A stretch of DNA of 37,593 nucleotides from a virus: the IMG/VR virus record IMGVR_UViG_3300043331_000585, positions 1 to 37,593 of that record, one strand, 5' to 3'. The position numbers were made by a program, and so were the translations under genes. Under the pieces are notes generated by a model that worked only from the letters and a program-made list of their open reading frames with translations, did not search any database and was not told the DNA's origin. The number at the start of each line of letters is the position of its first letter. The stretch's first letter is position 1. This document shows positions 5,142 through 37,593 of this stretch, piece by piece.

Positions 5142-5186
5142 GAGCGCTCTCCTTCGCTGTTTGTTGTTGGGCTCCCGGCGGGGGAG

Positions 5187-13697: not shown

Positions 13698-14546
13698 TCA
13701 GCCCATCACCGACTCGACCACCGGCACTCGGCCGGTGATTCCCTGAACCATCTGCCCTTCCATCACTCGGAGGTGAGTCTCCGAGCAATAGCCGCCCCAC
13801 AACCGTTGCCCGGTAACGGGGTCGAGCGCTTCCGCCTCGTCGCAATCGCGGAGTAGGCAACGGATCGGGAAAGCGAGCTTGGCGCCCTTCCGCTTGTAGC
13901 GCTCGATCGGATCGGCAATCGAGCCGGCGCCATTGTTGATCGTTCCCTCGAGGGGGATCTGGCGGATCGAGCCATGCCGGTAGCAAGGCGTCTTGGGGTT
14001 GTCGTCGCAACCGTCGCCAAAGATCGGGAACACCATCTTGGCGGTCCGCATCCGCAGGATCTTCTTGGGGTCGTCGGGCAGAGCTCGAGACCGCTCCTGC
14101 GACATTTCCTGGGCGAGCTTCGCCATCAGGTCGCGGATCAGCTTCTCGTAGTAAGCCTTGTCCTCCGACCAGAGCGGGGGCCGCCCGTCCTTCTGCCGGC
14201 GCTTGTTTTCGATGGCGAGCTCGCCCTCGGCCATCGAACGCAATGCTTCCTCGCCGAAGTGAGCCAGCACGTCATCGGCGGTGCGGATGATCGGCATGTC
14301 GGCATAGGGCATGAACCGCTGCCGGTCGCTCTCGGCTCGAGCCTTGGCGGCGAGTGCCTCGTCACGCTCCTCCTCCGCCTTGGCAAGCGCGGTCTTGAGC
14401 TCCTCGACCGAGAGCTCGACAACCTCGGGGGGAGCGCCGAACTGCTCCACATTGGCCTTGTGAGCCTTGGAGGTGAGATGGCCCTCCCAACCAAAGGTGC
14501 CACCACCAATCGACTTATCGCAGGTGGGGCAGAAGGTGTCGCTCAT
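13698..14546 (-). CDS. Zinc-finger protein in the head module, 282 aa
   Basis: The N-terminus has a C2H2 finger, C6-x2-C9-x13-H23-x5-H29 (FCPTCDKSI, then WEGHLTSKAH), close in spacing to the U1/matrin-type fingers known mainly from eukaryotic RNA- and DNA-binding proteins. A coiled coil follows (about 45-70, LKTALAKAEEERDEALAA), then a helical domain. The C-terminus has a second Cys/His cluster, with CDDNPKTPCYRH, CLLRDC and YCSETH, that could bind another zinc. ATG 14544-14546 overlaps the upstream stop (ATGA). Function unknown; it lies among capsid genes and so may be a virion component. Confidence 0.7.
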   Translation of the reverse strand: MSDTFCPTCDKSIGGGTFGWEGHLTSKAHKANVEQFGAPPEVVELSVEELKTALAKAEEERDEALAAKARAESDRQRFMPYADMPIIRTADDVLAHFGEEALRSMAEGELAIENKRRQKDGRPPLWSEDKAYYEKLIRDLMAKLAQEMSQERSRALPDDPKKILRMRTAKMVFPIFGDGCDDNPKTPCYRHGSIRQIPLEGTINNGAGSIADPIERYKRKGAKLAFPIRCLLRDCDEAEALDPVTGQRLWGGYCSETHLRVMEGQMVQGITGRVPVVESVMG

Positions 14547-14824
14547 TTCTTGGCCGCTTTCTTGGCGGCCGCTTTCTTGGCCGGTGCCTTCTTGGCACTC
14601 GACTTCCGAGCGGCGGCCTTCTTGGTGGCCGAGCGGCGCACCGGGGTCGACGGCGACGGAGCGGTCGCCTCGACCTTGGAAACATCGGGGTTCTGAGCAA
14701 AGTGCTCGGCGAAGAACGCCGCATCGACCTCAGCCACTCCGGTCGGGTCGAACTGCACCTTGCGCCCTCCCACTGAGAGCTTGTCGCCTTTGTGGGACTC
14801 GTGACGGAACTTCACTGTTGGCAT
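14543..14824 (-). CDS. Small protein with histone-H1-like Ala/Lys tail, 93 aa
   Basis: ATG 14822-14824 is preceded by AAGGAAGGG, which fixes the start; in-frame upstream codons lie beyond that site. Residues 1-50 are a small globular part with HKGDKLSVGGRKVQFDPTGV. From about residue 63 the protein is a low-complexity basic tail with repeated KKAAAKKA and AKKAPAKK units, like bacterial histone-H1-like proteins. Located just downstream of the capsid and a capsid-associated lectin-like protein, it may bind packaged DNA inside the head or decorate the capsid. Both are inference. Confidence 0.75.
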   Translation of the reverse strand: MPTVKFRHESHKGDKLSVGGRKVQFDPTGVAEVDAAFFAEHFAQNPDVSKVEATAPSPSTPVRRSATKKAAARKSSAKKAPAKKAAAKKAAKK

Positions 14825-14891
14825 GGTTCCCTTCCTTTCAAGGGCTCGAGGAGGGGTACCAAGGGGCCCGTAGCACCCCTCCTCAAATCGG

Positions 14892-15641
14892 TTATCTCGG
14901 GATCCAGAGCCAAACGAAGTCGACGTCGAGAGCGACAGCATCAGCGCCGCCCGAGTCCTGCCAATGGGCCAGCGAGAACTCGACTTCCTCGTCGTCGTCA
15001 ATGTTGCAAGGGACCGTTGCCAGGTGAACCATCACCGGGCGGCCATTGGCTCCCACCAAGCCGCCGTAGAAGGCCACCGACTTCGGACCGCCCTGGGCGT
15101 TCTGCTCCGACGAGCACTCCACGCGGAATTCGTAGAAGCTGTCGATCGCCATTGTCGTCCCCGAGGTCAGGCCGGCCTTGACGCCGGCTGGCCCCGAAAC
15201 CAAGGCCGCCTCGTCGCCGTGATCGGCGGAGTCGACTTGGCAAGACAGCACCCCGGCATCGGAGTCGACCCACACTCCCACCGTGGGAGAGGTGGCCGTC
15301 ACCGAGTCTTGGAGTCCGACTCGGAAGTTGCCCGAGGCGAGCTCCGTGGGGTAACGGATCTTGGCGCCGAACTTGGTACCCGGCCGAACGATCAGACCGT
15401 CCTCGTCCAAGCGGATCACTCCGCCGTCACCGTTGGCGGTGGCCGCGGTGGTAAGCCGCAGCACGCCATAGGCACCGAGACCCTGTTGGGCCAAGTACGA
15501 GGGGGTCGAGGCATTGCCGATCGTGACCAGCTCCCACCTCAATTCGCTGATGGTCGCATCGGCGACCGCATCGTTTGAGGCGAAGTCGTCTTTGAGCAGC
15601 AATCCCGAGGGGGGAAGCCAGAAATCAATTGGACTCGTCAT
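14892..15641 (-). CDS. Concanavalin/LamG-like beta-sandwich virion protein, 249 aa
   Basis: ATG 15639-15641 follows AAAGGAG. The product is nearly all beta: LKDDFASNDAVADATISE at the start, GVLRLTTAATANGDGG in the middle, then alternating strands (FYEFRVECSSE, KSVAFYGG) and the end VALDVDFVWLWIPR. The order of strands and the aromatic last strand are typical of phage concanavalin-like jelly rolls that decorate capsids or form fibres. It directly follows the major capsid gene, so a head decoration protein is the first guess. Family assignment by fold only. Confidence 0.65.
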   Translation of the reverse strand: MTSPIDFWLPPSGLLLKDDFASNDAVADATISELRWELVTIGNASTPSYLAQQGLGAYGVLRLTTAATANGDGGVIRLDEDGLIVRPGTKFGAKIRYPTELASGNFRVGLQDSVTATSPTVGVWVDSDAGVLSCQVDSADHGDEAALVSGPAGVKAGLTSGTTMAIDSFYEFRVECSSEQNAQGGPKSVAFYGGLVGANGRPVMVHLATVPCNIDDDEEVEFSLAHWQDSGGADAVALDVDFVWLWIPR

Positions 15642-19014: not shown

Positions 19015-20090
19015 TACGTCCCCCGGATCCCGAGCCCGGCGATCATCGCTGCAAACTTCTGGCTGAACTCGCCTTGGTTCTGAGCCTGGTAGTAGGCGCC
19101 ACGGCGGATCCGCTCCTCAAAGCCGGCTTGTCCCGCCCCATGCTTGGCACCCGAAATGGCGAGCTCCTCCTCCATCCGCGGGGGAAGGCCAAGCTGGCGG
19201 ACGGTGCCGAGGTACTGCCCGATGTATTGGCCGGCCGACATATGGGCGGGTTTCTTTCCGTAGATCAGTTGGTAACGGGCGGTCCCCTCGATCTTGTCTC
19301 GCACGAAAGTCTCGAAGTCGAGCCGGCCACCTTGGAGCAAAAAGTCGTTGGCTCGAGCCTCGTATTCGGCCGCCAAGCCGGCGGCGTCGGGCGGATCCTC
19401 AAAGAGCAAGGACCGCCACAAATCCTCGATCGAGTTGACGGCCTGTGCCTCGTCAAGCACCACCTGGGGCGGCTCGGCCCTGCCGCCACCGCCGCCGCCT
19501 CCCCCACCCCCTGAGCCCAGGTCGAAAATGCCACTTGAGAAACCCTCGAGGATCTGCCCGATCTCGCGCTCGGAGTAGATCGGGGCGCCGGCCAGCGCGC
19601 CTCCGGGCATCCCACCGGGTCGTATCTGCTGCAACCCTTGCTTCGGGCTGTTGGTGTAGTAGATCGTGCCGCTGGCAGAACGCACACCGAAAACGCTCGG
19701 GAGGGCGTATAGGCCCTGCCCAAACCATGAGAGGGTCTGACCGACCTCGGGCGAGTTGACCACCTGGACAAAGGTGGGAAATGCCCCGGTCCGAGCCCGC
19801 CAATCGTCAGCGATCTGATTCGCCATATCGGAGGCGATCGAGCTCGAGAAGCCAAGATCGCGGAGCCACTGCACTGTGAGTTGGTGCTGGAAGGCGCCGG
19901 ACTGAGTACCCGACCAGCGAGATACGCCGCTCTCGTCGACTTGGATCGTGCTGCCCCCTGCGATTGGCGGAGCACTCGAACTACCGCTAGTCCTAGTGGT
20001 GGTGGGTCTAGTGGTCCGCGGAATCGTGGTCTCCGGTGGCTCCCACTTCGGAGGGTTCATCTCGGTCGGAGTGTTGCCCCTACTCGTCAC
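19014..20090 (-). CDS. Putative internal virion protein with polyglycine linker, 358 aa
   Basis: GTG 20088-20090 overlaps the stop of the 2003-aa gene (GTGA). The first 50 residues are disordered (PPETTIPRTTRPTTTRTSGS). A domain of about 130 residues follows (HQLTVQWLRDLGFSSSIASD, then FPTFVQVVNSPEVGQTLSWF). A run of ten Gly (about 196-205) separates it from a helical C-terminal half with YEARANDFLLQGG and GRLDFETFVRDKIEG. The hinge-like glycine run suggests two modules that move independently, as might suit a protein that must unfold through the portal. The role is inferred from position. Confidence 0.6.
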   Translation of the reverse strand: MTSRGNTPTEMNPPKWEPPETTIPRTTRPTTTRTSGSSSAPPIAGGSTIQVDESGVSRWSGTQSGAFQHQLTVQWLRDLGFSSSIASDMANQIADDWRARTGAFPTFVQVVNSPEVGQTLSWFGQGLYALPSVFGVRSASGTIYYTNSPKQGLQQIRPGGMPGGALAGAPIYSEREIGQILEGFSSGIFDLGSGGGGGGGGGGRAEPPQVVLDEAQAVNSIEDLWRSLLFEDPPDAAGLAAEYEARANDFLLQGGRLDFETFVRDKIEGTARYQLIYGKKPAHMSAGQYIGQYLGTVRQLGLPPRMEEELAISGAKHGAGQAGFEERIRRGAYYQAQNQGEFSQKFAAMIAGLGIRGT

Positions 20091-23000
20091 GGCCCACCTC
20101 TCCGCTCACGCTCGGCCGCCAAGAGGGCGGCGAGATCCTGCACCGTTCCACCGACGTCGGCTCCGGTGGGGTTGGTGGCAGTGAACACGGACGGGTTATA
20201 GAGGGGAACCCCATCGACATAAAGCCATGCAAACACGCGGAAGGTATCGGGCTCGGTTTCTTGGACAAGGGGGAAGGTCTCCGGCTCGAAGATCCCCAAG
20301 GTGATCTCCCTGGCATCGGCAATCACTCGGGCGAGCTCGTCGAAGGCTTCGGCATAGCCGGCTTGTCCCTGCTCGGGAGCGTTAAGTCCGATCACCCGGA
20401 CCCGGACCTCACCCTCTCCCGCTGTCACCACTCGCAGCGTGTCGCCGTCCTCGACCGAGACCAACCGGGGATCCGCAGCGAAGGATGCTGTGAGATCCTC
20501 GAGTGCCGGCGGAGCTGGCGGCTCGTAGTCAAGGGGACCGAAGGCCGCCCGGAGGTAGCGGTCGTAATCGGTGCGGAGATCGGGGTCGGTGGCGACTACC
20601 CGCCCGAGCTCGGTGCGGGCCCACTCCTTGAAGTTCTCAGGCCAGTCGTAAATCGAGGTGATGCCGGCGGTTTGCTCGAGATCATCGCTGGCCTGCTCGA
20701 AGTACCCGACCAGCGTGTCGTATTCGGGTTGGCGGCGGATCTTGAGCCAGAAGGGACTCGCCGAGACCGAGATATCGCGGGAGACCCATTGCTCGAACTG
20801 TGTTCGGAGGATCTCTCGGAACTCCAAGCCGGTGAGCTGGCGGGGAAGCTCGATACCGATGGCGGAGAACTCCTCGAGCGCCACATCGTCAAAGGTGATC
20901 CGCGCTCCCTCTAACGCCTTGGTCATCCCGTCGCCGTACTCCCGGCCGGTGATCTCGAGCCACATCTGGCGGGCTCGGTTCCGCTTGGCGTCGTTGCGAA
21001 TGAAGATCGCATCGGCCGCCACCTCGGACTCGGGGCGAGCCTCGAACCATCCCTCCTCGAAGCCTCGCCGGCGGATCTCGGCGCCACGCTGGCCCTGCAA
21101 GGCGGGATTGCTGGTATCTATCCGTCCGTCCGGGGTGCAATATTCGGCGGGTCCGACCGGGCGGCCGGTGTCGTCGAGCCGACACTGCGCGGTCCCGACC
21201 ATGTTGGCGGCGAGCTCGGGGTTACGAGCGATCAGCCAATCCCTCCACGCGTCGGGAAGGTCGAAAAGGGTGGTGGCAGCCTGGTCGGTGAAAAGCTCTC
21301 GTTCTTTGTCGGTGGCGGTCCCGGCCTCGATCTTCTCCCACCAGTCGCGAAGGGCATCGGCTTGCGGATCCCCGATTACCCCGCTCTCTTGGAGAAGCGT
21401 CAGAGCGGCGACCAGGCCCTCATAGAGCGGGACGACATTGGAGTCGGGAGTGATCTGCCTACGAAACCCGACATAACGGCGCCACGCGCTTGCGTACTCG
21501 GCACCATTCGCCTCGGCCATCGCCCCGTCGACGAGCTGGCTCAGGCGCCGGTCGAACTCGGCACCCTCGGCAACCAAGGTGGGGTTGTCGGCGAGGAGCT
21601 GACCGAGCCGATACTTGAAGGCGTCGGTGTAGCCATAAGGTCGACGTGCCCAATCGAATACTCCCTTGGCCTCGTCGGAGCTAAAGAACTTCTCGATCGC
21701 AGCGGCGCCGGGCAAGTCGGCAGAGGAGTAGCCACGGGCCGCCCATCCCATGACCCCGGTGAGCGAGCGGTTGGTGGTGGGGAGGAAGTAGCGAAAGAAC
21801 GTTTCCGGGGTGAGCGCGGCCTGGCCCTCGATCCACTCGAGGGTGGGAAAGAGCTCGGTGAGCTTCTCGCGGACCGGGTGTTCGGGTGGCATGTAATGAA
21901 TCGCCATCGTCGACCAAGGGCCGAGACCGGGAATGAAATTGGTCAGGAAATTGTCCGGGTCGTCAAGAGCCACCGGCAAGAAGGTCCAGGTCTCGAGGAG
22001 GTTGACCGGGTGCAAGGGTCCGGTCTCTGAGTCCCGTCGCTCGCTCTCGGCGATGAGGTGGAGCCAACGAGCCGCGATCCGAGCATTGACGCCGGGAACA
22101 TGTATCGAGCCATCGGCGAGTCGCTGAATCCCTCGACCGACCGCGGTGCCGCTCCCGCCGGCGATACGGGAAAGGCCGGTGGCGATGCCCCGCAGTGGCC
22201 CTTGCAAGGCGAGGTCGGTCCCCGCCATCAACTGCCGTGACCACCAGCGGAGGAAGTCATATTGGGCGGGGAAGAACGGTGCCAATTGGGCGAGCTTGCG
22301 ACCGAGAAGCGAGGAGGCACCCCCCAGGTAGAGAAGCGATCGAGCATGGCGCTCGGCCCACTTGGCGGCGGTCTGCTCGAGGTAGCCGCGGGTAACGAGG
22401 CCCATCTGTCGGAGCTGCTCGTCGAGCCGGCGGTCCCGCACCGAGATCATGAACTCCGCCTCCTGACGCGAGGAGGCCACGCCGGATTGCACGATCTCAT
22501 CGAGTTTGTCATCGACGATTCGCCCGGCCCACCGAGCCTCGAGGGTGGCGAGCGATTGCTCGTAGAAGTGCTCGTAAAACACTCCGCCGCGGGCTCGGGC
22601 CGGAGCCCCATAAAGAACATCGAAGCCCCTCGAGAAGCCCCTCGGTATGTCCTCGACCTGAGCGGGGACCGCCGGCGCCATGCGGATGATTGGCGGCGGG
22701 AGGGTGCGCTTGCCGGTGGCGAGAGCGTCGAGCACCGCCCGGCGAAACTCCGCCGGCTTCTTGGCGGCATCGAAGAACAACCCAAACCCATTCTCCAGGG
22801 TGAGGTAGGCGCCTTCACCGTCGAGCATCCGTACCTGGCCGGCGCCGGCCAGGGGAACCGCAGGAGCGTTACGACCGCGGGCCCCGACCGTTTCCCACCA
22901 TTCGGTGAAGATCCGGGGATCCTCCTCGAGCACCGCCCGGGCGTAGTAGCGGAACGCATCGTCGTTGAGCACCGACCCCTCGAGCCACCGTTGCGCGGCT

Positions 23001-26000
23001 TGGAAATGGCCTTGAGCTCCGTTCTCGACCATTTCCCAACTACCCCGCCGGCGCTCGAATCCCTCGAGGGTCTGTCGAACCCACTGAGCGGCGTGGGTGT
23101 TCTGTTGGTCAGGGATGAGATTGCGAAGGCCGGGGATCCGGCGAGCGACGGCGGGAGCCGGGGAGACCAGCGATCTCGTGGCTCGGCCAAGCGCTCCGGT
23201 GGCGGTCCCAAACTTCACCACGTCCTCGAGGTGGGCCTTGGCGGCGTTGAGCGGGTTGTAAAGCAATCCCACCGCCCATAGTCGGTTGGCTCCGCGCATG
23301 AGATTGGGGATGATGTCGCGGGTCGCCCGCGAGATCGCTTCCGCCGCTTGCCGGGCGTAGCCGGCTCGCTTGGCTGAGGCGTAGAGCGCCAGCTCGTAGG
23401 GGGAGACCGGGAGCCAGTGCTGCGACCCCGACTCGAGCACGCCGAGTCGTTTCATGTCCTCGGCAAACTCACCAAACGGCTCCACTCGAGCCGCCTCGGG
23501 TCGGTTGGCGCCCCGGCCGGTGAAGGCCCGGACCTCCGACCAGAGCCGACGGCCGTTAGTCCCTACCGGGATCTCGAGCTCGTCGGCCCATTGCTCCATG
23601 AACTCGTCGACGAGACTTGCCAGATCGGCCCGGCTGTGAGGGCGAGTGGCCTCGTAGTTGGCCCGACGAAGCAACTGACGCTGGCGCAGGTTCGCCGCTC
23701 TTTGAGCGATCGCCTCGTCGTATTGCGGTCCCAGATCGGCTAGTCGCTCCTCGAGGGCGGCGATCGACTCCCGCAGGCTTTGAGCGTTCCGCTCCCAATC
23801 GAAGGCTTGGGCGGCTACTTGCTCGGGAGCGAGCTCGGCAGCCTCGTCGCCTATCCGAACCGCCTGCTCGAACTGCTCGGGGCTGGCGGCAAGCCGGGCC
23901 TCCACCTCGAGGAGCTCGCGACGAGTGCGCTCAAGGGATTGTCGGATCAGCGGGACGGATTTGACCTGGCGACTCATCCCTCGCCGAATGGCGATCGACT
24001 GTTGGCGGAGCGAGTCGGAGAGGGCGATCCGCTCGGCGGCCAGGTTGGTCCCCCCGCTGGTGTAGTCGTTGAAGGTGCGATAGGCCCGCTCGAGCCAAAG
24101 CTTTGCGAGCTCGGTGTCATCGGGGTTGGGGTAGCGAGCAACGATCAGCTCGGTCATGTCGTCCAAGAACTCGGATTCGCCAAGGCCGATGGTTCGTCCG
24201 GTGGGCTGGCGCCGCAAGAGCTCGACCACGGCGTCGCGGATTGGGTCGTCGCCCATGTGTTGGCCGAGCTCGCCGAGCCCAAGAATCGACTGATGGTGCA
24301 TCGCCAGGGCGGGGCCGTTCATCATCCACGTCCCGTTGGTGATCTCGTCCTTGAGGACCGCTTGGATCACGTTGTCATCGGTGGCATTGAGCAAGGCGAG
24401 TCGAGCTCGACCCGACATGCCTTGAAGGAACGGTGCGAGCTTGATGGCGTCGTTCGTCGAGCCAATGGCCTGACGAAGCACTCGACCCCTGGAAGAACGG
24501 AGAAACGCCTCGGCGCCGACACTGCCGGTCGCCATGTAGCGAGTGAAAAGGCGGGCACCGTGTTTGCCTCCGCCGGTGACCCAATTGGTCGGGTCGAAAA
24601 GCATGGCTGCACCAAGGTTGATCCACCCCGCCGCGGCCGAGCCCGGCTCCGCCCATCCATACCACTCGGCGATCCCGCCCTCTTTTGCGGCCTCGAACGA
24701 GCGCCGAGCGACTTCCCAACCATCCTCGGCCAGAGCCTCGATCGGTCCCTTGAGCTCGGTCCGGTCCTCGACCAAGTTGGGCAGGATCGAGTGGAGCTCG
24801 TCGATCACCTCAATCCCGATCGAGTACGCCACCGCGTCAAAGACCTCGGCGGCTTCGATGATCTTCTCGAGCACCTCGCCGGTAGTGGACTCGATGGTTG
24901 CTTGCTGCTGCTCGAGCTCTCGGAATTCCTCGATCAATTCCTCGGCGGTCAGCGAGTGAATGTCCTGTAGAAGTCGATCCTGTTGGCTCGGATCAAGACT
25001 GGCAAAGATCTCGCGGGCCATGCCGATCGCCGGATAGAGCGACTCGGCTTGGCCCATCTGCACCAGCCGTTGCCCGATGAGCGAGACCGCCAGATCGGGG
25101 GTGGTCCGGGCGGCGGCCTGAGCTTCGACTGCCGCTCGCTCCTCACGGTCGACCTGGCGAGCGTCCCATTGGCGGCCAAGGAAGGTACCGATGCCCACGG
25201 CGGTCCCCATCACCGCGGCGCGTGAGCCGATGTTGACCGCTCGAGGGAAAAGCTCAGAAGCGATCGCCCACCGCTCCTTTTCCGCCGGCGAGATCTCTCG
25301 AGCTCGGTTGAAGTAGGCGAACCAGCCCTCTTGCTTGGCGGCTCGACTCCGCCGATCGAGCTCGACGCCACGCTGGCGAGCGGACTCGTCGGCGGCGAGC
25401 TCCTCCATCATCGAGTAAGCCTCTTGCCAGAGATCCTCGATGGCGGTCCCCGGTCGGTGGGTCCATGAGGCTCCGGTCTGTGCCATTGCCTCGGTGAAGT
25501 CCTCGCTTATAAGTGCTTTCAGGTCGGGATCGTCGCGACTCCACTCGTACATTCGGTGAGCAACCACCCTTGCCATGTCGTTTGACATGGCGGGCATATA
25601 GGCGAGCCCCAGGGCGGTGAGCTCGGTAATGGCGTTCTCCCGCATCGGATCCCAATCGGTGAAACGGTCCGGCACAACGATCGGGTCAGGTGAATCAAAT
25701 CGAGGGACAGCGATTTCGCCGGAACCTAGATTCCTACGTCGATTCTCGGCCCGGCCCTCTGCACCCGCGTAGGGTGCTCCTGCACCAATGCTGGTTCCAT
25801 AGATGAGCCGAGCCGCGTCGAGCTCTGCACCTCGCATCGTGGTTCGGTTTTTGCGTCGGTTCTCAGCTCGCCCCTGAGCTCCCGAGTACCGCCTCGCATC
25901 GACCAATTGACGGGAGCGGACGGCCCTGCGTGTGCGATCGTCGATCACTCGCTGCGCCTGGTTGAACTGCTCGCGCGCCTGCACTCGTGATCGGGTTTGC

Positions 26001-26098
26001 GCCAGCACCTCGCCCTCGAGAGTGATTTCGCCTCCCGGTCCCTCTGGCCCGGCGTTCAGGTCGCGAAGCCGCTGGCCGCGAACGTCGCGGGTGGTCAT
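20087..26098 (-). CDS. Giant internal virion (ejection-type) protein with C-terminal SNase-like domain, 2003 aa
   Basis: The largest gene in the window. ATG 26096-26098 overlaps the upstream stop (ATGA). The basic N-terminus (1-130) carries a 14-residue direct repeat (71-85 and 110-124, around GRAENRRRN). Long helical regions follow, including a coiled coil near 720-830 (RTRRELLEVEARLAASPEQF, ESIAALEERLADLG) and hydrophobic stretches such as LAQLAPFFPAQYDFLRWW. The last 125 residues (from about 1878) match the staphylococcal nuclease fold: VEDGDTLRV with D1884 and D1886, VRVIGLNAPE with E1909, and FRVFAWLY with R1954. The Asp at the SNase D40 position is Asn here. Position between portal and scaffold, size and lack of tape-measure features point to a DNA-ejection protein. 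No lytic transglycosylase motif was seen. Confidence 0.75.
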   Translation of the reverse strand: MTTRDVRGQRLRDLNAGPEGPGGEITLEGEVLAQTRSRVQAREQFNQAQRVIDDRTRRAVRSRQLVDARRYSGAQGRAENRRKNRTTMRGAELDAARLIYGTSIGAGAPYAGAEGRAENRRRNLGSGEIAVPRFDSPDPIVVPDRFTDWDPMRENAITELTALGLAYMPAMSNDMARVVAHRMYEWSRDDPDLKALISEDFTEAMAQTGASWTHRPGTAIEDLWQEAYSMMEELAADESARQRGVELDRRSRAAKQEGWFAYFNRAREISPAEKERWAIASELFPRAVNIGSRAAVMGTAVGIGTFLGRQWDARQVDREERAAVEAQAAARTTPDLAVSLIGQRLVQMGQAESLYPAIGMAREIFASLDPSQQDRLLQDIHSLTAEELIEEFRELEQQQATIESTTGEVLEKIIEAAEVFDAVAYSIGIEVIDELHSILPNLVEDRTELKGPIEALAEDGWEVARRSFEAAKEGGIAEWYGWAEPGSAAAGWINLGAAMLFDPTNWVTGGGKHGARLFTRYMATGSVGAEAFLRSSRGRVLRQAIGSTNDAIKLAPFLQGMSGRARLALLNATDDNVIQAVLKDEITNGTWMMNGPALAMHHQSILGLGELGQHMGDDPIRDAVVELLRRQPTGRTIGLGESEFLDDMTELIVARYPNPDDTELAKLWLERAYRTFNDYTSGGTNLAAERIALSDSLRQQSIAIRRGMSRQVKSVPLIRQSLERTRRELLEVEARLAASPEQFEQAVRIGDEAAELAPEQVAAQAFDWERNAQSLRESIAALEERLADLGPQYDEAIAQRAANLRQRQLLRRANYEATRPHSRADLASLVDEFMEQWADELEIPVGTNGRRLWSEVRAFTGRGANRPEAARVEPFGEFAEDMKRLGVLESGSQHWLPVSPYELALYASAKRAGYARQAAEAISRATRDIIPNLMRGANRLWAVGLLYNPLNAAKAHLEDVVKFGTATGALGRATRSLVSPAPAVARRIPGLRNLIPDQQNTHAAQWVRQTLEGFERRRGSWEMVENGAQGHFQAAQRWLEGSVLNDDAFRYYARAVLEEDPRIFTEWWETVGARGRNAPAVPLAGAGQVRMLDGEGAYLTLENGFGLFFDAAKKPAEFRRAVLDALATGKRTLPPPIIRMAPAVPAQVEDIPRGFSRGFDVLYGAPARARGGVFYEHFYEQSLATLEARWAGRIVDDKLDEIVQSGVASSRQEAEFMISVRDRRLDEQLRQMGLVTRGYLEQTAAKWAERHARSLLYLGGASSLLGRKLAQLAPFFPAQYDFLRWWSRQLMAGTDLALQGPLRGIATGLSRIAGGSGTAVGRGIQRLADGSIHVPGVNARIAARWLHLIAESERRDSETGPLHPVNLLETWTFLPVALDDPDNFLTNFIPGLGPWSTMAIHYMPPEHPVREKLTELFPTLEWIEGQAALTPETFFRYFLPTTNRSLTGVMGWAARGYSSADLPGAAAIEKFFSSDEAKGVFDWARRPYGYTDAFKYRLGQLLADNPTLVAEGAEFDRRLSQLVDGAMAEANGAEYASAWRRYVGFRRQITPDSNVVPLYEGLVAALTLLQESGVIGDPQADALRDWWEKIEAGTATDKERELFTDQAATTLFDLPDAWRDWLIARNPELAANMVGTAQCRLDDTGRPVGPAEYCTPDGRIDTSNPALQGQRGAEIRRRGFEEGWFEARPESEVAADAIFIRNDAKRNRARQMWLEITGREYGDGMTKALEGARITFDDVALEEFSAIGIELPRQLTGLEFREILRTQFEQWVSRDISVSASPFWLKIRRQPEYDTLVGYFEQASDDLEQTAGITSIYDWPENFKEWARTELGRVVATDPDLRTDYDRYLRAAFGPLDYEPPAPPALEDLTASFAADPRLVSVEDGDTLRVVTAGEGEVRVRVIGLNAPEQGQAGYAEAFDELARVIADAREITLGIFEPETFPLVQETEPDTFRVFAWLYVDGVPLYNPSVFTATNPTGADVGGTVQDLAALLAAERERRGGP

Positions 26099-26719: not shown

Positions 26720-28561
26720 TCACTGGTTGAGAGCTCGGTTGGCGGGCATCAACTGGCGGAGTCGGCCGCCGAGCCGGCTCAATCCGCCTTCGGTCCCGGC
26801 TCCGCCGGCCTCGAGTGAAGCCACCTGGCGGAGCGGGTCGATCTCGTTGCCGCCGCCGGCGGTCGGGCCTTCGGTGGGGACCGGCGCCTGCGTTTCGCGG
26901 ATCACCTCCATGACGGCTTGGCGCGCGGTCATGGTGTCTCCGTCGACCTTCTCAGCCAACATCTGCAAGGGGGCGAGATTGCCGGCGGCCGCTTGCTGCA
27001 AGAAGAATTGGATCCCGCCTTGGACCGCGTTCTCCAAGAGCATGTCCCGCTCCTCCTGCAAGGGATCGTCGACCAAGCCGGCTTCGGTCATAAAGGTCCG
27101 TTGCGAAATGGCATTCATCGACCTCGAGAGAGCCAGCATCGACAAGAGGTTGTGAACGTCGAGCCCGGCCGCCGAGCCGTAGGTGACCACGTTGCGGTAG
27201 TCGCCTTTGAACAGGACCGCCGGGTCATAGGTCTCGATCCATGCCGCCTTGCCCTCGTGGCCTTCGATGGTCTTGCGGCCGGCGCAATGCACCTCGTCGT
27301 ATTGGGCGGTGAGAACGTTCCCCCAGGAGATCAAGTGGGCAATGTCGATGTGGGCCAGCCGGAGCTCGGCGTCGTAGCCGCCCTCGAGCTTGTCTTGGCC
27401 GCGGCCGGTCGTCCACCCACCGGAGCGTGAGCCGGACCGTGACTCGGGAAACTTCCCTTGTCGGCGTGCCATTTCGAGCTGGTCTTTGACCGCTTGGATC
27501 GCCTCGAAATTCATCGGCTTGCGCGGGTAAATGACGTTGGGGTCGCCCTGGCCGTCACCGCGGAGGTGGGCATTGGGGCCGTAGTCCTCTTCGTTCTCAA
27601 TGTTCTGGAAAACCACCGGCCCGAAGATCGAGTCGCTCATGTCCTCGAGGTAGCGGGCCATGATGTTTTGAGCCACCTTGAGCCGGGGAATCACCGAGTC
27701 GACCGGGGCTCGGTACTCGCCGTCGTTGGTCTTGCGCTTGGCTTCGGCCACCGGGCACCAGTCGAGACCGTGGGGCATCGGCTCCACCAACCACTCGTCG
27801 ATCGAGGTCTTGGGAGCGGCCACCGGGGCGACGTAGCGCCAAGTGTCATATTGGGGGCGGATCGGGCGCAGCGAGAGCGACACGGCGATGGTGGTCTCGT
27901 CGTAATACCAAGTCTCCTCGACCTGGCGCATCCCATCCTCCTTGCCGTGGCTGAGGCGGTGCCGGTACTCGAGGTTGAGGATGCCGGGGTGAGTCGCCCC
28001 GTACTCGTTCTTCACATCGGTCAGCTTGCGGAGCCGGGTGAAGATCACCGAAGTCAGCCGGCCGGTGTTGTTATGGGAGAGGGGATAGACCTGGCGGGGG
28101 TCGACCCGGACCATGTAGGGGAAGCGAGCCGCCGGCGGCCGCACGTTCCCATCGGCGTAATAGGCGTCGCAATGGGGGGTGAGATAGGCGGCGGCGTGGC
28201 CGAACCAGTCGAGGAATAGCTGGACCCGGTTCACCTCCATCATCGAGCGGTCCTCGTAGCTCTTGAAAACCCGCCGGCGCTGTGCCGCCACCCGCTCGGC
28301 CCGATCGGAACGAGTCCCTCGAGTGGGCCAGACAAAGATCTTGGGGGCGACGGAGGCGGCCTCGGCGGTCTTGTCCTCGAGCATTTGCAGGACCGTGTTC
28401 TCGACCAAGGGCTCGCCGATCTCTGCGGTGAGATCATCCCAAATCGTCTGCCACTGGTCGGCGGCGATGGCGTCGAGGGTCAGTGATCGCCGTTTCCACG
28501 ACTGGTGTTGGCGGATCGCTTCCTCCCGCAAGCCCGTCAATTCGGTTATGTCAGTCAGCAT
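26720..28561 (-). CDS. Portal protein, 613 aa
   Basis: The head vertex ring through which DNA enters and leaves. The helical N-terminus (ITELTGLREEAIRQHQSWKR) leads into a beta-rich region with the wing (RFPYMVRVDPRQVYPLSH) and the stem/clip region. The C-terminal barrel-forming helices include GNVLTAQYDEVHCAGRKTIE and, later, QGGIQFFLQQAAAGNLAPLQ. The protein lies directly after the large terminase gene, the usual terminase-portal order. ATG 28559-28561 overlaps the terminase stop by 11 bases. Length is at the upper end for portals. The C-terminus is rich in Ala and Gly. Confidence 0.85.
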   Translation of the reverse strand: MLTDITELTGLREEAIRQHQSWKRRSLTLDAIAADQWQTIWDDLTAEIGEPLVENTVLQMLEDKTAEAASVAPKIFVWPTRGTRSDRAERVAAQRRRVFKSYEDRSMMEVNRVQLFLDWFGHAAAYLTPHCDAYYADGNVRPPAARFPYMVRVDPRQVYPLSHNNTGRLTSVIFTRLRKLTDVKNEYGATHPGILNLEYRHRLSHGKEDGMRQVEETWYYDETTIAVSLSLRPIRPQYDTWRYVAPVAAPKTSIDEWLVEPMPHGLDWCPVAEAKRKTNDGEYRAPVDSVIPRLKVAQNIMARYLEDMSDSIFGPVVFQNIENEEDYGPNAHLRGDGQGDPNVIYPRKPMNFEAIQAVKDQLEMARRQGKFPESRSGSRSGGWTTGRGQDKLEGGYDAELRLAHIDIAHLISWGNVLTAQYDEVHCAGRKTIEGHEGKAAWIETYDPAVLFKGDYRNVVTYGSAAGLDVHNLLSMLALSRSMNAISQRTFMTEAGLVDDPLQEERDMLLENAVQGGIQFFLQQAAAGNLAPLQMLAEKVDGDTMTARQAVMEVIRETQAPVPTEGPTAGGGNEIDPLRQVASLEAGGAGTEGGLSRLGGRLRQLMPANRALNQ

Positions 28562-30614
28562 CGGAGCTCCCGATGACCAGTTGGGCGAGATCGACGTTGG
28601 CGTACACGTCGGCCCGAACGTTACCGCGCCGACCCTTCTTCTCCTGACCGTAACGCTTTTGCTGCCAGCGACGGGTGACGTTGGCCGGAACCTTCTGCTC
28701 CATGCCCCGACCCTTGCGCTCGAACCGCTTGAACAGGGCTCGAGCCTCGAGAACCCCCATCCATATCGCCATTGCCAGGTCGTCGGGGTGGGCGGTCCGC
28801 ATGTTCTTTGACCTGATCTTCTTGGGGGCGGAGTCCCAATTCTTGAAGTGCTGGCGAATGGTGTAGGTCTTGGTCTGATCGGGCGTGGTGGCGGTCGGGA
28901 ACAGAAGCCGGCGGTCCCGCATTTCCGAGGCCACCGAGGCCACCCCGATCTCCCGGTCCATCCGGTTCTTGTGGGTTTGGTGCCGCACCACCGTCACCCC
29001 GAAGTCCGAGATCGCCTTCTGTGTCTCGGAGTCCTCGAGCACGCCCTGCTCGTGGTTCACCTCATAGACCAGATAGGTCGGTTGCCAGACGGTGAGGGGG
29101 TTGATGATGAGCCGCTGCTTGATCCCCACCACTCCGAGCCCGGAGAAGATCTTGTAATCCAAGACGGCGATGGTCTGCTCCTCGAGATTGACACCGAGCA
29201 TCACCCATGCCGCTCCGCCAGCTCGGGCCGGATCCACCGAGAGAATCCGCACCTCTTTGGGCAGAGACTTCCCATAGCTCCGGCGGGGATCGGAGCAAAG
29301 GTCGAGAATGGCATCGGTGAAGTCGAATTGAGCGGCGTCGGCGGAGGGGTTCTGTTGATAGGCGGTCTCGAACCAATCGGGATCTCGCTCTCGGATTTCC
29401 CGCAGGCCGAGCACCCGCTTGCAACTAGCGGCGGCCGCCTCGTCGATCGACATTGAGGAGAGCTCCACTCGCTCGCCGGTCGGAAGCTGCCACTTCCCGT
29501 CGAGGGGGAACCGAGCCTCGTCATAGCTCCGTTCGTCGCCGTCCTCGTCGACCCAAATCGCTTGGCAGATGATGACGCAAACACCGTTGGTGTAGACCGT
29601 CTTGGTCAGCGGCCCGACCTGCTCGGTGTCCCAAATCTCGGCACCGCCGATGTAGTGCTCCATGAGGCGCTCGTGGTTGTCATCGGCACCGACTCGAGTG
29701 CCGAGATCGACCAAGCGCCCCATCGCGTCGAGCCGGGAGTCGGCAGTCCCGACGCACCATTGAAAGTCGGATTCCTTCTCGAGCTGGCTCCGCTGGTTCT
29801 CTTTGGTCACCAAGTCGGAGAACACCATCAGCCCGACTCGAGAGCCGTAGAGGGCGCCGCCCATCCCCGTTGCCCACAAGTCGGGCTCGGCTTCGGGAGC
29901 GGCCGCCGATTGCAAGAAGCGGAGCTCGTGCTGAGTCCAGGTGGTCTTGGCGACCGGGGTGCCATCGGGGTATTCCATGCCGGGCTCGGCCTTGAAAGGG
30001 CCGTAATCCTCTATCAGCGAGCCGGTGGGCTTGGCCCCGCCGGGGGTCTGATAGGGCTTGACCCGATAGACCTGGGGATCGGTCAGGTAGGGCTCGAGCC
30101 GTTGCGCGATCCGGCGCACCGAGAAGTTGTCGTTCTCCATGATCCACGCGCATCGGAGGTAGGAACGGTCGTCGCACTTGAGGTAGAGCAAGACGTCACC
30201 GACCGTGGTGTCCTTGCCGCCGCCGGGCGGAGCGAGGATGAAAGTGACCCGGTTGGTCTGGTTGAGGAGGCCATCGGCGATCGCTTGGCCGAGGAGCGTC
30301 GTCGGCCGGCCGAGATACTTCATCCGCCACTCGGCGAACTCGGCCTTGGGTGGCACCGGGCGATTGGGGTCATAGACGCTGTGCTTGCGCGCCGAGACCC
30401 GGCCCTTCAAGTGGGTAATCGCCTTGATTGCATTGTCGAACTCCACATCGTTGAGCCGGAGTCGCTGCATCACCGAATAGGAGACCTCGAACTTTCGATA
30501 GACCTCGCGCAAGGTGTGGCCGGCGTCGAGGTACCTGAGCATTTGCTTCTTCTTGGCGTCAAGAGTCGGGCCGTGAGCTCCTGTGCGATTGGCGGTGGAG
30601 TTGATACGGGTCAT
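28551..30614 (-). CDS. terL: Terminase large subunit with N-terminal HTH, 687 aa
   Basis: The DNA-packaging motor. Residues 21-55 (MLRYLDAGHTLREVYRKFEV, then SYSVMQRLRLND) look like a helix-turn-helix. The ATPase follows with Walker A APPGGGKDTT at 128-137 and a Walker B candidate VFSD (264-267). The RNase-H-like nuclease has D461 in ILSVDPARAGG, E518 in LVYEVNHEQG and D611/D612 in HPDDLAMA. ATG 30612-30614 overlaps the stop of the 547-aa gene (ATGA); longer in-frame starts lie inside that gene. No separate small terminase gene was found, so the N-terminal HTH may do part of its job. That is inference. Confidence 0.93.
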   Translation of the reverse strand: MTRINSTANRTGAHGPTLDAKKKQMLRYLDAGHTLREVYRKFEVSYSVMQRLRLNDVEFDNAIKAITHLKGRVSARKHSVYDPNRPVPPKAEFAEWRMKYLGRPTTLLGQAIADGLLNQTNRVTFILAPPGGGKDTTVGDVLLYLKCDDRSYLRCAWIMENDNFSVRRIAQRLEPYLTDPQVYRVKPYQTPGGAKPTGSLIEDYGPFKAEPGMEYPDGTPVAKTTWTQHELRFLQSAAAPEAEPDLWATGMGGALYGSRVGLMVFSDLVTKENQRSQLEKESDFQWCVGTADSRLDAMGRLVDLGTRVGADDNHERLMEHYIGGAEIWDTEQVGPLTKTVYTNGVCVIICQAIWVDEDGDERSYDEARFPLDGKWQLPTGERVELSSMSIDEAAAASCKRVLGLREIRERDPDWFETAYQQNPSADAAQFDFTDAILDLCSDPRRSYGKSLPKEVRILSVDPARAGGAAWVMLGVNLEEQTIAVLDYKIFSGLGVVGIKQRLIINPLTVWQPTYLVYEVNHEQGVLEDSETQKAISDFGVTVVRHQTHKNRMDREIGVASVASEMRDRRLLFPTATTPDQTKTYTIRQHFKNWDSAPKKIRSKNMRTAHPDDLAMAIWMGVLEARALFKRFERKGRGMEQKVPANVTRRWQQKRYGQEKKGRRGNVRADVYANVDLAQLVIGSSDAD

Positions 30615-32254
30615 GTCAGATCCACTCCGCCGGGCGCTCGATAGCCGGCGTTCTGTAGGCGCTGATCGGCGGCGGCCACCAGCGTTGCTTGTGAGGAGCC
30701 GGAGTGTGCCGCCCATACCGCACTCATCAGGGCCATCACTTCATCGTGGGTGCCCTGCTCCATGACAAAGACCGAGGAGGCGTTCTCCCAGGTCTCGGTT
30801 TTCTTGAAGCCGGAAGGTTGCCCATTGCCGAGCGGGACGAGCGAGAGCCTCGGGACGGAGGGGTAGCGCTTGAAGATGGCCGGAAGCCGCTTGATAATGA
30901 TCAAGGCGCCTGTCGTCGCAGAGGCGACGGCCTGCGCCTCATCGGTCTCGGTGGCCTGATCAATCGCCTCCCTTAACCTGACGAGAGTCGCAGTGTCGAT
31001 CTCCGTCGCCTGACCAATCGCCACCGTGACGATGACGGGTTGGGCGGTGTCGGTCTCGACAACCTGCTCGATTCCGGCCAGGGTGGTGACCATGATCGGC
31101 GGTCCCCAATCGGTGACCAGCTTGGCGAATATCTGGTGAGCCGTATCGGTCTCGGAAGCGAGGCCAATCGCATACGTCAATAGCGCCGAGAGGGCTCGAG
31201 CGAGATCGGTTTCGGAGGCAAGGCCGATCTGCTCGACCTTCGCTGTGCCGAGAGCCTGCGCGAGATCGGTTTCAGCCGATTGGCCGATAACGGTGGTAAA
31301 GGTGGCGGTTACGGCCTGCGCGAGATCGGTCTCGAGCGATTGGCCGATCGCAACCCTGACCCCGAAGCGGAAAGTTACGGCCTGCGCGAGATCGGTTTCG
31401 GCGGCAGTCGCGATCGCGTAGAGCTTCCGAGCGGTGATGGCGCGAGCGGTGTCGGTCTCGGAGGCTTGGGCTACCTGCTCGGTTTTCTTCCAGGTAATCG
31501 CCTGGGCGAGATCGGTTTCGGAGGCAAGGCCGATGGCTTGACTGATGGCAGGGGCGGCGGGCCGAATAACAACGGTGTGGGCGGCGTGGCGGTCACCACC
31601 TGTCTTGGTAAAGGTGCCGGGGTTGTCAGTGGCCGCCGCCAGTCCGCGGGTGGCGATCCCGTAGGAAACGGTGTCGCCTTCTGACCCAGTGGAGTTCTGA
31701 CCGGCGTATTGGTTCGATGAGTAGTTGGTGGGGTAGCCGCTGGCTAGGCCACGGCGGGCCTCGCAGCCATAGAGGGCGATGAAGAGGTTGTCTTCCGCCC
31801 CCCACGAGGCGGTCTCGCTTGGGGGGTCGGGCAAATCATTGGCGGCGATCGACGCCGCCGTCACCTCGGCCGCTTGAGTGGCGTGGGAGCCGGAGATGAG
31901 GAAGAGGCGGTTTACCGAGCATTCCGAAGCTGAGGAGGTGAACTGAAAACTCGACTCAGAGCCAGTGCAGTCGAGCTTTTCCCAGAGCTCGGTGGTGAAG
32001 TTGGCGTGGGTCGTCCTGATCAGTTGATTCCAACCCGTCGGGAAGTTCGACAAGGTGGGCGCCGCGTCGATAACCACCAGAAGGAAGGCGCGATCTCCCG
32101 CGGCCACTCCGGTCATATCGACATCGTGGCTAGTGGTGGCAGAATCCTCAACCGATTCGGTGGTGGCGTGAACGTCAGGGAATCCTTCGAGAAGAAGAAC
32201 CCCCGAGCCGTCCTCGAGAAGAAGATCGTCGCCGCTCTCTAGCAGCAGCGTCAT
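30611..32254 (-). CDS. Tail fibre-like protein with ten ETDxAQ repeats, 547 aa
   Basis: Residues 25-232 are a beta-rich domain that is also present at the N-terminus of the 744-aa protein. Shared landmarks are GWNQ, ISGSH, WGAEDNL and YGIATR. Residues 241-446 hold ten imperfect 20-residue units with the core [IV]xQAxETDxAQAV (IGLASETDLAQAITW, IGQSAETDLAQALG, IDQATETDEAQAVA). The last 100 residues (IIIKRLPAIFKRYPSVPRLS...) are different and may be a tip or attachment domain. ATG 32252-32254 directly precedes the end of the 213-aa gene's stop. A receptor-binding or fibre role fits its repeat architecture and neighbours. Confidence 0.7.
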   Translation of the reverse strand: MTLLLESGDDLLLEDGSGVLLLEGFPDVHATTESVEDSATTSHDVDMTGVAAGDRAFLLVVIDAAPTLSNFPTGWNQLIRTTHANFTTELWEKLDCTGSESSFQFTSSASECSVNRLFLISGSHATQAAEVTAASIAANDLPDPPSETASWGAEDNLFIALYGCEARRGLASGYPTNYSSNQYAGQNSTGSEGDTVSYGIATRGLAAATDNPGTFTKTGGDRHAAHTVVIRPAAPAISQAIGLASETDLAQAITWKKTEQVAQASETDTARAITARKLYAIATAAETDLAQAVTFRFGVRVAIGQSLETDLAQAVTATFTTVIGQSAETDLAQALGTAKVEQIGLASETDLARALSALLTYAIGLASETDTAHQIFAKLVTDWGPPIMVTTLAGIEQVVETDTAQPVIVTVAIGQATEIDTATLVRLREAIDQATETDEAQAVASATTGALIIIKRLPAIFKRYPSVPRLSLVPLGNGQPSGFKKTETWENASSVFVMEQGTHDEVMALMSAVWAAHSGSSQATLVAAADQRLQNAGYRAPGGVDLT

Positions 32255-35243: not shown

Positions 35244-35530
35244 GCCTGCACCGTGATCTCGAAGGCCCAGGTATCGCCACCTTGGGACACCGGGGTCGTG
35301 GCGGTGACGGTCAGCGAGGGATCGGGGTTGTGGATCACCACCGAGGGCTCGGGGTTGTCGATCTTGACGTTGAATCCCACCGAGACCTTGGAGGCACCGA
35401 CCGAAACATCGACCGCCTGGGCGACCGTGGTGTCGGCGGGGACTCCCGCGACCGTCGCCTCGACGATGGCCGGTGCACCCCCTGGCACCACCGAGACTTC
35501 GGTGGGGTCGAGCGTGACCGTATGGCTCAT
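35240..35530 (-). CDS. Small Ig-like beta protein, 96 aa
   Basis: ATG 35528-35530 overlaps the stop of the 154-aa gene (ATGA). The product is all beta. PTEVSVVPGGAPAIVEATV is the start of an Ig- or BIG-like fold, and VKIDNPEPSVVIHNPDPSL contains a pair of near-repeats (NPEPSVVI, NPDPSLTV). No signal peptide. Ig-like modules often decorate tails and capsids and bind surface sugars weakly. The exact role is not known. Confidence 0.65.
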   Translation of the reverse strand: MSHTVTLDPTEVSVVPGGAPAIVEATVAGVPADTTVAQAVDVSVGASKVSVGFNVKIDNPEPSVVIHNPDPSLTVTATTPVSQGGDTWAFEITVQA

Positions 35531-35991
35531 GACGCTCTCAGAAGCCCGGCGGAGTCGACCTGCAAGGTGAGGTCGGAGCCATCGGTGGTGGGAGTGAAAT
35601 CGTGCTGTGAGATCGGGATCAGGGTGTTATCGGCGCCCGAGCCGGAGTTGTCGTAAGCAAAGACGGCATCGGTCATGGTGTTATTGGTGCCGTTCCCCGC
35701 CGAAGTCCAGGTCTGATCGGGAATGTCGATGTCGACTCGGTTATTGGTGTCGTCGACGGTGACCGTGATCGAGCCATCGGCAATGTCCTTGCGGACGTAG
35801 TTGGTGAAGTTGGCCTCGTTCGAGGTCCCGGCCAGGAGGGCTTGGATCTCGTCGAAATCTCGTTGGGTGGCATCGGCATCGGCGGCGGTGATGAGCAAGC
35901 AGACGATCTCGGCGGCAGCCACGTCGCCGGCGGCGTCATCGGCAAACTCGCGGATGCGCCCGAGCGCCTGGTTGAAGATGAAGTCGGCCAT
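35527..35991 (-). CDS. Virion-associated hypothetical protein, 154 aa
   Basis: ATG 35989-35991 shares a base with the preceding stop (TGATG). The N-terminal half is helical (FNQALGRIREFADDAAGDVA, AAEIVCLLITAADADATQRD), followed by NFTNYVRKDIADGSITVTVD. The C-terminal half is beta (NNRVDIDIPDQTWTSAGNG, DLTLQVDSAGLLRAS). A similar helix-then-beta arrangement is seen in small minor-tail or head proteins of actinophages. I do not recognise the family with certainty. Confidence 0.68.
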   Translation of the reverse strand: MADFIFNQALGRIREFADDAAGDVAAAEIVCLLITAADADATQRDFDEIQALLAGTSNEANFTNYVRKDIADGSITVTVDDTNNRVDIDIPDQTWTSAGNGTNNTMTDAVFAYDNSGSGADNTLIPISQHDFTPTTDGSDLTLQVDSAGLLRAS

Positions 35992-36428
35992 CAGCGCCCT
36001 TTCTTCTTGGCTGGCTTTCCCACCTTGTCAAGATCGGGGAAGAGGGCGCCCTCGTAGTAGTGGATGACTTCGTAGCCGGCCTCGTGCTCGTCCATGTCGT
36101 TCGGGCTCTTCTGGCAAGCTCGCACATACTCTCGGCGCAGGGCCGCCGCCTCCGGGGTCCGAGCGGGTCCGTCCCCGATCCGATCCTTGCAATAGAGGCA
36201 ATAGGCGCCGGGGACTCGCTTGATGAGATAGCTGATATCGCCATCGGTGGCGTGGATGGTGAGGGTTCCTCGACCGAGGGAAACCGTCCCCGCCCCGATC
36301 TCTCGAGTCACCCACTTCTCGTCGAAGTTGAAGTGCTCCGGTGGCCCGCCCTCGATACCGCCAGCGACGGTCTCTCGAGAGCCGACGACGATCCGACCAT
36401 CCTTGTATTTGCGGATGAACAGTCCCAT
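35991..36428 (-). CDS. First gene of the late operon, 145 aa, with CxxC
   Basis: ATG 36426-36428 comes 8 bases after a TATAGT -10-like element (36437-36442) with no ribosome-binding site, suggesting a leaderless message. The N-terminal half is beta-rich (LFIRKYKDGRIVVGSRETV). The middle has YCLYCKDR (CxxC), and a third Cys follows about 27 residues later (RACQKSP). The end is basic (VGKPAKKKGR). It precedes the tail module. A small virion or regulatory protein is possible. The function is unknown. Confidence 0.68.
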   Translation of the reverse strand: MGLFIRKYKDGRIVVGSRETVAGGIEGGPPEHFNFDEKWVTREIGAGTVSLGRGTLTIHATDGDISYLIKRVPGAYCLYCKDRIGDGPARTPEAAALRREYVRACQKSPNDMDEHEAGYEVIHYYEGALFPDLDKVGKPAKKKGR

Positions 36429-36436
36429 CGGCGGCG

Positions 36437-36442
36437 ACTATA
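36437..36442 (-). promoter_or_regulatory. TATAGT -10 element upstream of the late operon
   Basis: TATAGT on the minus strand matches TATAAT at five of six positions and lies 8 bases before the ATG at 36428, the same spacing as in the early leaderless promoter. No convincing -35 is seen at 17 or 18 bases (ACAACT or CACAAC), so a phage or host factor may be needed. Confidence 0.45.
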
Positions 36443-36534
36443 CGCCACCCGTTACGAGAAGTTGTGGTTTTCCCTAATCCGTATCGCTAGCTTCGCCGAG
36501 CCGGGGTTTCTGCTGTTTACCCTCCTACTCGGTC

Positions 36535-36564
36535 TGGCCGGCACCGGGGGCACCAAGCCGGCCA
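36535..36564. repeat. Inverted repeat between the 71-aa and 145-aa genes
   Basis: TGGCCGGC (36535-36542) and GCCGGCCA (36557-36564) are perfect 8-base arms with a 14-base loop. On the minus strand no U run follows, so it is not a classical terminator. It could be a regulatory hairpin or a protein-binding site upstream of the late promoter. Confidence 0.4.
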
Positions 36565-36570
36565 ACCTTC

Positions 36571-36786
36571 TCAGAGGGCTCGGAGCCAGCCGCTATCCGT
36601 GATCTCGACTTGGATCGAGTCGGCGGCGATCGCATCGGTCATTGGTCCCTTGATTACGACCAGCGCCGGTGAGCGCCACGCGGGAACTAGCCAGCTCAAG
36701 CGTTGCCGCCAGCTCTTGGGCCTTCCGTCATCCCGGTAGGCAATGATCCTCTCGACAGGGCCGTTCATCAAGCGAAGGGTAACCAT
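36571..36786 (-). CDS. Small basic protein, 71 aa
   Basis: ATG 36784-36786 lies in a tandem heptamer repeat, without a ribosome-binding site. The product is MVTLRLMNGPVERIIAYRDD followed by a basic stretch RPKSWRQRLSWLVP and a C-terminal strand pair (ALVVIKGPM, SIQVEITDSGWLRAL). It is separated from the late operon by 142 bases holding a hairpin and a promoter-like element. Protein-like composition supports it, but no family is recognised. Confidence 0.6.
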   Translation of the reverse strand: MVTLRLMNGPVERIIAYRDDGRPKSWRQRLSWLVPAWRSPALVVIKGPMTDAIAADSIQVEITDSGWLRAL

Positions 36787-36804
36787 GATTCATGATTCAT
36801 GATT
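36784..36804. repeat. Tandem heptamer CATGATT, three copies
   Basis: Three perfect copies of CATGATT at 36784-36790, 36791-36797 and 36798-36804. On the minus strand each supplies an ATG, seven bases apart and so in three different frames; only the last starts the 71-aa gene. Confidence 0.7.
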
Positions 36805-37106
36805 CGCGATCGAGCCGCTATGGTCTCGCTCGACAACAAGAGCCAGTACCGCAGAGCCTTGGTCGCCGACCCATGACGCCAAGCAGCCGAGCCGAAAGCT
36901 CCCCGGACGACGTACACATAACCAACCAAATCGGCGCCGGCAGAATCTCACTCACCGCCCACGGCGGAATTTTTTGTGCCCGGATCGGGAAAATCGACCT
37001 CTCGACGCTACAACTTTGCTTAATGCTTGCTCCCGTTAAACGGCGATACCACTTTGAGCAAGCACTCGCCCCTCCGAACGCCGAAATCTGTAGCGTCGAG
37101 GTGTAG
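36792..37106 (+). CDS. Doubtful plus-strand frame, 104 aa
   Basis: A frame opens in the heptamer repeat; an internal ATG at 36873 is also possible. The C-terminal 70 residues look somewhat protein-like (ITNQIGAGRISLTAHGGIFC, LCLMLAPVKRRYHFEQALAP). It would be divergent from the late operon. A minus-strand frame of similar length covers the same bases, no ribosome-binding site is visible, and its end runs into the CGCTACA cluster. It may well be chance. Confidence 0.25.
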   Translation: MIHDSRSSRYGLARQQEPVPQSLGRRPMTPSSRAESSPDDVHITNQIGAGRISLTAHGGIFCARIGKIDLSTLQLCLMLAPVKRRYHFEQALAPPNAEICSVEV

Positions 37107-37187
37107 CGTCGAAATCCCCTAGAGGAACCTGCCCTTTTCAATGGTGACGCTACAGCACGCTACACCTATATAACACCTTTCGCTACA
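37006..37187. repeat. Cluster of six CGCTACA motifs
   Basis: CGCTACA occurs on the plus strand at 37006-37012, 37148-37154, 37158-37164 and 37181-37187, and on the minus strand at 37089-37095 and 37102-37108. Three copies extend to CGCTACACCT, and three carry TCGA on the 5' side. An AT-rich patch (TATATAACA) lies between the last two. Such clusters are typical of iterons, partition sites or multi-copy operators. Confidence 0.7.
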
Positions 37188-37205
37188 CCTTGCGGGGGGG
37201 AGGGC

Positions 37206-37307
37206 TACGCGAGGGAGCAAGCGCGACAGTGGGGGGTGGGGGGTGAAACCCCCCCCACTGATCGCGTCTTGCGACCGAGCCCTCGGACAGCTCCCCCGCC
37301 TCGCGTA
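37206..37307. repeat. Large GC-rich interrupted palindrome
   Basis: Inner arms: GCAAGCGCGACAGTGGGGGG (37218-37237) pairs with CCCCCCACTGATCGCGTCTT (37251-37270) with two single-base bulges. Outer arms: TACGCGAGG (37206-37214) and CCTCGCGTA (37299-37307). A small hairpin CCGAG/CTCGG lies on the right side. The whole could form a cruciform or a very stable RNA. Confidence 0.65.
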
Positions 37308-37593
37308 ATAAGGGGAAGGGGAAGCATCAAAGAGAAAGGGAGAGCAGAGTTAGTCAGAAGGGGAACGGGGATCGCGTAGATAGGTCAAAGAAGGGACTTT
37401 CGGCGTCAGAATTTTTCGTGGTGACTGTCCGTAGGTATGCGGTTGGGCGGATTGACGACCCCCGGTTCGCCACTCTCCGCGGTCATCGTGGGTAGGGGTA
37501 CCCAGGTTTTCCAAGCGGGCTCACCGCGGACCGTGGTGGGTGGTGGGTACCCGGTGATTGATTCGCTCGAGCCGATCGGCCGGCGGTGGAGGG

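Follow-up and report, generated by a model that had tools for sequence, protein, structure and literature searches.

The window, that is, the whole stretch of DNA analysed here, is the 37,593-base contig IMGVR_UViG_3300043331_000585, an incomplete phage genome without terminal repeats and with a GC content of 63%. Its genes form a leftward block, in which a C5 DNA methylase is truncated by the left edge of the contig; this block also contains the recombination genes RusA, RecT and RecE and tail/fibre-like genes. Two small genes (35527-35991 and 35991-36428) close it at 36428. The second of these, on the minus strand, is the first gene of the leftward structural block and, by codon score, the nearest firmly coding gene to the repeat array described below. 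The terminase large subunit (28551-30716) is very divergent, its best phage matches being about 25% identical. An ORF of 2003 aa (20087-26098) gave only a weak endonuclease match (phrog_452), near its C-terminus; it is far too long for an endonuclease alone and possibly encodes a polyvalent or tape-measure-like protein. We recognised no initiator, helicase or primase among the genes inside the window. For these functions the original prediction that no replication gene is visible holds, with the qualification that the recombination genes RecE, RecT and RusA are present. A ParA/ParB/FtsK/TraB-type gene was likewise not recognised inside the window, and the contig stops to the right of the array at 37593. 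Close relatives were sought by DNA and by protein (with 35527-35991, 35991-36428 and the terminase), which returned only distant homologues of one gene, all of them lacking the array. No close relative sharing the array, as the prediction had proposed to look for, was found, and among the collections searched this phage seems to stand alone.

The array consists of six exact copies of CGCTACA between 37006 and 37187, in the order +--+++. Units 1 (37006-37012, plus strand), 2 (37089-37095, minus), 3 (37102-37108, minus, 13 bp from unit 2) and 4 (37148-37154, plus) carry GACGCTACA, unit 5 (37158-37164, plus, 10 bp from unit 4) carries CACGCTACA, and unit 6 (37181-37187, plus, 23 bp from unit 5) carries TTCGCTACA. 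The extended unit is ACGCTACA in five of the six and GACGCTACA in four. Units 1 and 2 pair as a 17-nt inverted repeat that is 88% complementary. The other 37.4 kb hold only two copies of the word (13895 and 24535, both on the minus strand), and the total of 8, against a whole-window expectation of 1.6, was reached in none of 100 shuffles. Among 600 genomes simulated with a third-order Markov model, none had six copies of any 7-mer within 182 bp (the maximum was 5). The array is statistically real and above chance, and the six copies predicted within 182 bases in both orientations were confirmed at their exact positions. Among the 7-mer clusters of the window, the next in density consists of five CCAAGAA within 182 bases from 14547 onward, near the boundary of ORFs 13698-14546 and 14543-15001. 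An imperfect direct repeat (CGGCGGAATTTTTTGTG at 36962-36978, CGTCAGAATTTTTCGTG at 37404-37420) flanks the array.

By codon score, the array lies in a non-coding region at the right end of the contig (36787-37593). Two ORFs span most of the array stretch, with codon scores of -12 and -52 bits, compared with +52 for the next real gene; the ORF 36792-37106, which crosses the array, was rejected on this score. Since the motif is unevenly spread and the stretch is non-coding, neither the even spread through the genome nor the coding conservation that would speak against the original prediction was found. The array region has a GC content of 52%, against 63% for the genome. The AT-rich patch is also as predicted: the lowest-GC 50-nt windows (44%) lie at 36990-37058, immediately ahead of unit 1 and in the gap that separates it from unit 2, and rank in the bottom 0.2% of the genome. 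The lowest-GC stretch inside the array in the GC scan (37008-37057, 44%), between unit 1 and units 2-3, is a candidate unwinding element. The cumulative GC skew of this incomplete contig lends no support to an origin at the array: the minimum, which the prediction had named as a check, is at 5155, and the maximum lies near the array (36265).

Folding revealed a long imperfect hairpin of about 113 nt adjoining the array (37192-37304). Its free energy as RNA is -76.6 kcal/mol (z -5.3, and z -6.5 in a 120-nt scan), and the hairpin, which has a G-tract/C-tract core, is far above shuffles in stability on both strands. It includes none of the six CGCTACA units; it may be a terminator or contribute to the structure of the origin. 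A search of Rfam returned no family at gathering score, and the search for tRNA and tmRNA returned none.

CGCTACA arrays in other genomes

Our first scan of public collections demanded three direct copies of CGCTACA, and later scans used the inverted arrangement. The direct-copy scan led to several phage contigs of high GC content, on which 7-11 copies lie in both orientations. With the inverted pattern, bacterial and archaeal genomes gave 113 stretches of up to 13 copies, mostly in Streptomyces and other actinobacteria, and also in Rhodobacterales and others. Many of these stretches have 8-13 copies in a near-constant geometry (9, 18, 30, 40 bp). Applied to viral contigs, the inverted pattern matched 35 loci, the largest having 13 copies, and the reversed word matched 9, each with only the three copies demanded; this is a thin comparison of specificity, with reversed CGCTACA as its one control word. 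The public collections hold more than 80 distinct loci with arrays of 5-13 copies, in both orientations and with 9/18/30-bp spacing. The podovirus-like loci L344, L346, L349, L355, L359, L363, L367, L370 and L373 have a common CGCTACA array geometry (140, 13, 28), and at L344 this array adjoins terminase and P22-like portal genes. One-direction arrays inside long ORFs, with spacings that are multiples of three (e.g., L386 and L175), were set aside as protein repeats. The match at L228 is probably unrelated, because the neighbouring gene is a sugar kinase.

The same-strand spacings in the window (10 and 13) fall inside the range of the class (8-13). The window array is looser than most others with CGCTACA, having six copies and gaps of 83 and 46 bp. 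The base preceding the word is mostly A in the window units and C in 86% of the units of the other arrays; A precedes part of the units in L352, L311 and L371.

To describe the genes beside the arrays, we counted positions for 86 distinct arrays with at least five copies in both orientations, taking the nearest large ORF within 1.5 kb. In 60 of the 86 cases it is the 3' end of this ORF that lies at the array and in 15 the 5' end, while 11 arrays have none within that distance. Most actinobacterial arrays overlap or come after the 3' end of a DUF3631 gene (RepAM, PF12307), and PF13148 is also among the array-adjacent replication families. Elsewhere, arrays are preceded by genes for DUF3987 proteins (L249, L238, L252), Prim-Pol+AAA_25 proteins (L356, L234), VapE-like helicases (L358, L362), a CHC2 primase (L353), a BT4734+AAA_25 protein (L352) and a DnaB_N+AAA_25 protein (L345). 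A comparison by hhalign did not support a single C-terminal DNA-binding domain common to all initiators, the best probability being 7%.

DUF3631 loci chosen by protein

Because choice by motif was to be avoided, we sampled DUF3631 genes, protein first. They came from 198 genomes belonging to one phylum, together with four genomes to which motif hits had led. Inverted arrays of a 7-8-mer are frequent 3' of the domain: at about two thirds of the 24 loci with a located domain, a single 7-mer occurs at least four times, on both strands, in the roughly 250 bp on that side. The word is CGCTACA at L399, L400, L401, L403 and L404, all from genomes reached through motif hits: four of the five come from two such genomes and the fifth was reached likewise. 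The evenly drawn genomes yielded CGCTACC and other words, which differ from CGCTACA by at least one letter. Arrays of CGCTACC lie 3' of DUF3631 at L402, L417, L419 and L420, and CCGTCCC-like words at L398, L406, L410 and L415; other words in this place are CGCAACA (L421), a CCGCCAC word (L407) and AGTGCTT (L409). At L408, L411, L416 and L418 we recognised no array on the 3' side. CGCTACC arrays also lie 3' of DUF3631 in two small circular replicons of Streptomyces that were selected only by their protein. A DUF3631 RepAM is encoded, for example, by the 13.5-kb Streptomyces plasmid NZ_CP108827.

Phage loci chosen by protein carry CGCGACA, CGTTACC, GGTTCTG and GCTTACA at or near the corresponding place, and at one of them, L342, no repeat word was recognised. 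In the cultured Pseudomonas phage Phipami28 (L339, 6895-7025) five CGCGACA in both orientations form a candidate origin, located where an unannotated DUF3631-like gene has its 3' end. On a tree of DUF3631 the repeat word broadly tracks clades and its last letter flips between A and C, with 9 changes, a count made with no shuffle control. Since the loci chosen by protein carry other words in the corresponding place, the architecture is more general than the word, and beyond any one word it fits pairs of initiators and iterons.

Interpretation of the array

We think it probable, at roughly 70%, that the array is an iteron-type origin of phage replication and that the initiator reading it is a primase/helicase whose gene lies past the right edge of the contig. 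The comparative evidence favours one of the functions originally proposed, an origin with its replicator off the right edge, although the initiator itself is unseen. We infer that an initiator of the RepAM/DUF3631, DUF3987, VapE/D5 or Prim-Pol+AAA type would bind the inverted clusters formed by the six CGCTACA units and, once bound, would assemble a helicase at the array. The AT-richer segment beside the units would then be melted and replication would start, a scheme modelled on the alpha protein of phage P4, whose winged helix binds the origin repeats before the protein unwinds and primes (PMC4234260). The hairpin may take part as in pRN1, or act as a terminator. If the genome is circularly permuted, the recombination genes of the left edge would lead leftward through the missing part to the right edge, and the array would then lie on the 3' side of this missing part, the usual position of such arrays. 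The points that count against an origin are the initiator missing from the window, the lack of a relative sharing the array, the GC-skew maximum, the A before the unit, the loose spacing, the location of some arrays near terminase/portal or FtsK-like genes, and the negative hhalign result.

The operator and partition readings of the original prediction have less support. As a multi-copy operator, the six sites would bind a phage repressor or activator controlling the leftward structural block, the genes beyond the right edge, or both. This role would suit the place of the array in non-coding DNA upstream of the leftward block and the presence of sites in both orientations. However, other arrays of this exact word sit by the 3' ends of replication genes rather than chiefly at promoters, and no sigma-70-like promoter was found in 36400-37593 (for a host of unspecified type); we consider an operator unlikely. 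For a partition or transfer site, a protein of the ParB/FtsK type would read the array as a centromere-like or clt-like element. Such a site has a counterpart in clt of Streptomyces, where TraB recognises 8-bp repeats through its C-terminal HTH in a transfer function (PMC5365140), and at L224 and L334 arrays of 5-6 copies directly follow the 3' end of a gene whose product resembles FtsK in its C-terminal part, judged by eye only. Yet the proteins of these two loci have no Pfam family match, most arrays with a recognised neighbour adjoin primase or helicase genes, and the window, unlike clt, has no recognised TraB/FtsK gene, nor one for ParA/ParB, so we regard such a site as quite improbable.

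The array might also serve packaging (pac/cos), as a site to which the terminase small subunit binds, given that terminase and portal genes are close to some CGCTACA arrays (L344, L135, L110) and that the window array is near the contig end. The terminase large subunit of the window is nevertheless 6 kb from the array, and at L355 an array with the geometry of L344 has terminase/portal genes on one side and, on the other, a DUF3854+DUF5906 primase-like gene, which it also abuts at the 5' side; packaging is very unlikely. Six short words could be a cluster without function, but their density unmatched in the simulations, the low-GC non-coding setting and the match to a recurrent iteron word make chance hardly credible.

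An iteron-type origin at this place can be compared with several known systems. Like the window, the RepAM modules of actinomycete ICEs (pMEA300 type) have a core CGCTACA in inverted clusters, located 3' of the initiator gene or inside its 3' end. RepAM (DUF3631) was reported to be responsible for the autonomous replication of the integrative element pMEA300 and is predicted to act by rolling circle (PMC3218068). In contrast, the units of the window are fewer, looser and preceded by A, and it comes from a phage rather than an ICE and lacks a DUF3631 gene. The origin of pRN1 and phage BIP-1 has a long stem-loop (about 100 nt for the pRN1 type) beside a primase-helicase gene; in the window the hairpin at 37192-37304 is present and the gene is unseen. 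In pRN1 this stem-loop lies 3' of the gene and there are no iterons (PMC4234260), whereas the window has iterons plus hairpin. The P4 origin resembles the window in its short repeats, which are read by the primase-helicase gp-alpha, while the initiator for those of the window is unseen. The sequence of the P4 repeats differs from CGCTACA.

As an iteron-type origin, the window array itself would belong to a known kind, and the part worth following is the recurrence of the word beside several initiator families. We tentatively suggest, at somewhat less than even odds, that CGCTACA is an origin code common to DUF3631, DUF3987, VapE/D5, Prim-Pol+AAA_25 and DnaG-like initiators of actinobacteria, proteobacteria and phages, the phage of the window included. 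These initiators would use the word in inverted arrays placed 3' of the genes that encode them, through either exchange of a DNA-binding module or convergence. We found no description of a CGCTACA signature common to different initiator families in the literature searched, which lay mostly outside subscription papers; the one match for CGCTACA iterons was a Lactobacillus plasmid paper. With this signature, candidate origins can be located in the raw DNA of uncultivated phages and mobile elements, including cases where the initiator is off the contig, and it raises the question of why different initiator families appear to read one 7-bp word. If the DNA-reading module is exchangeable, the compatibility of origins among phages, plasmids and integrative elements could become predictable from sequence.
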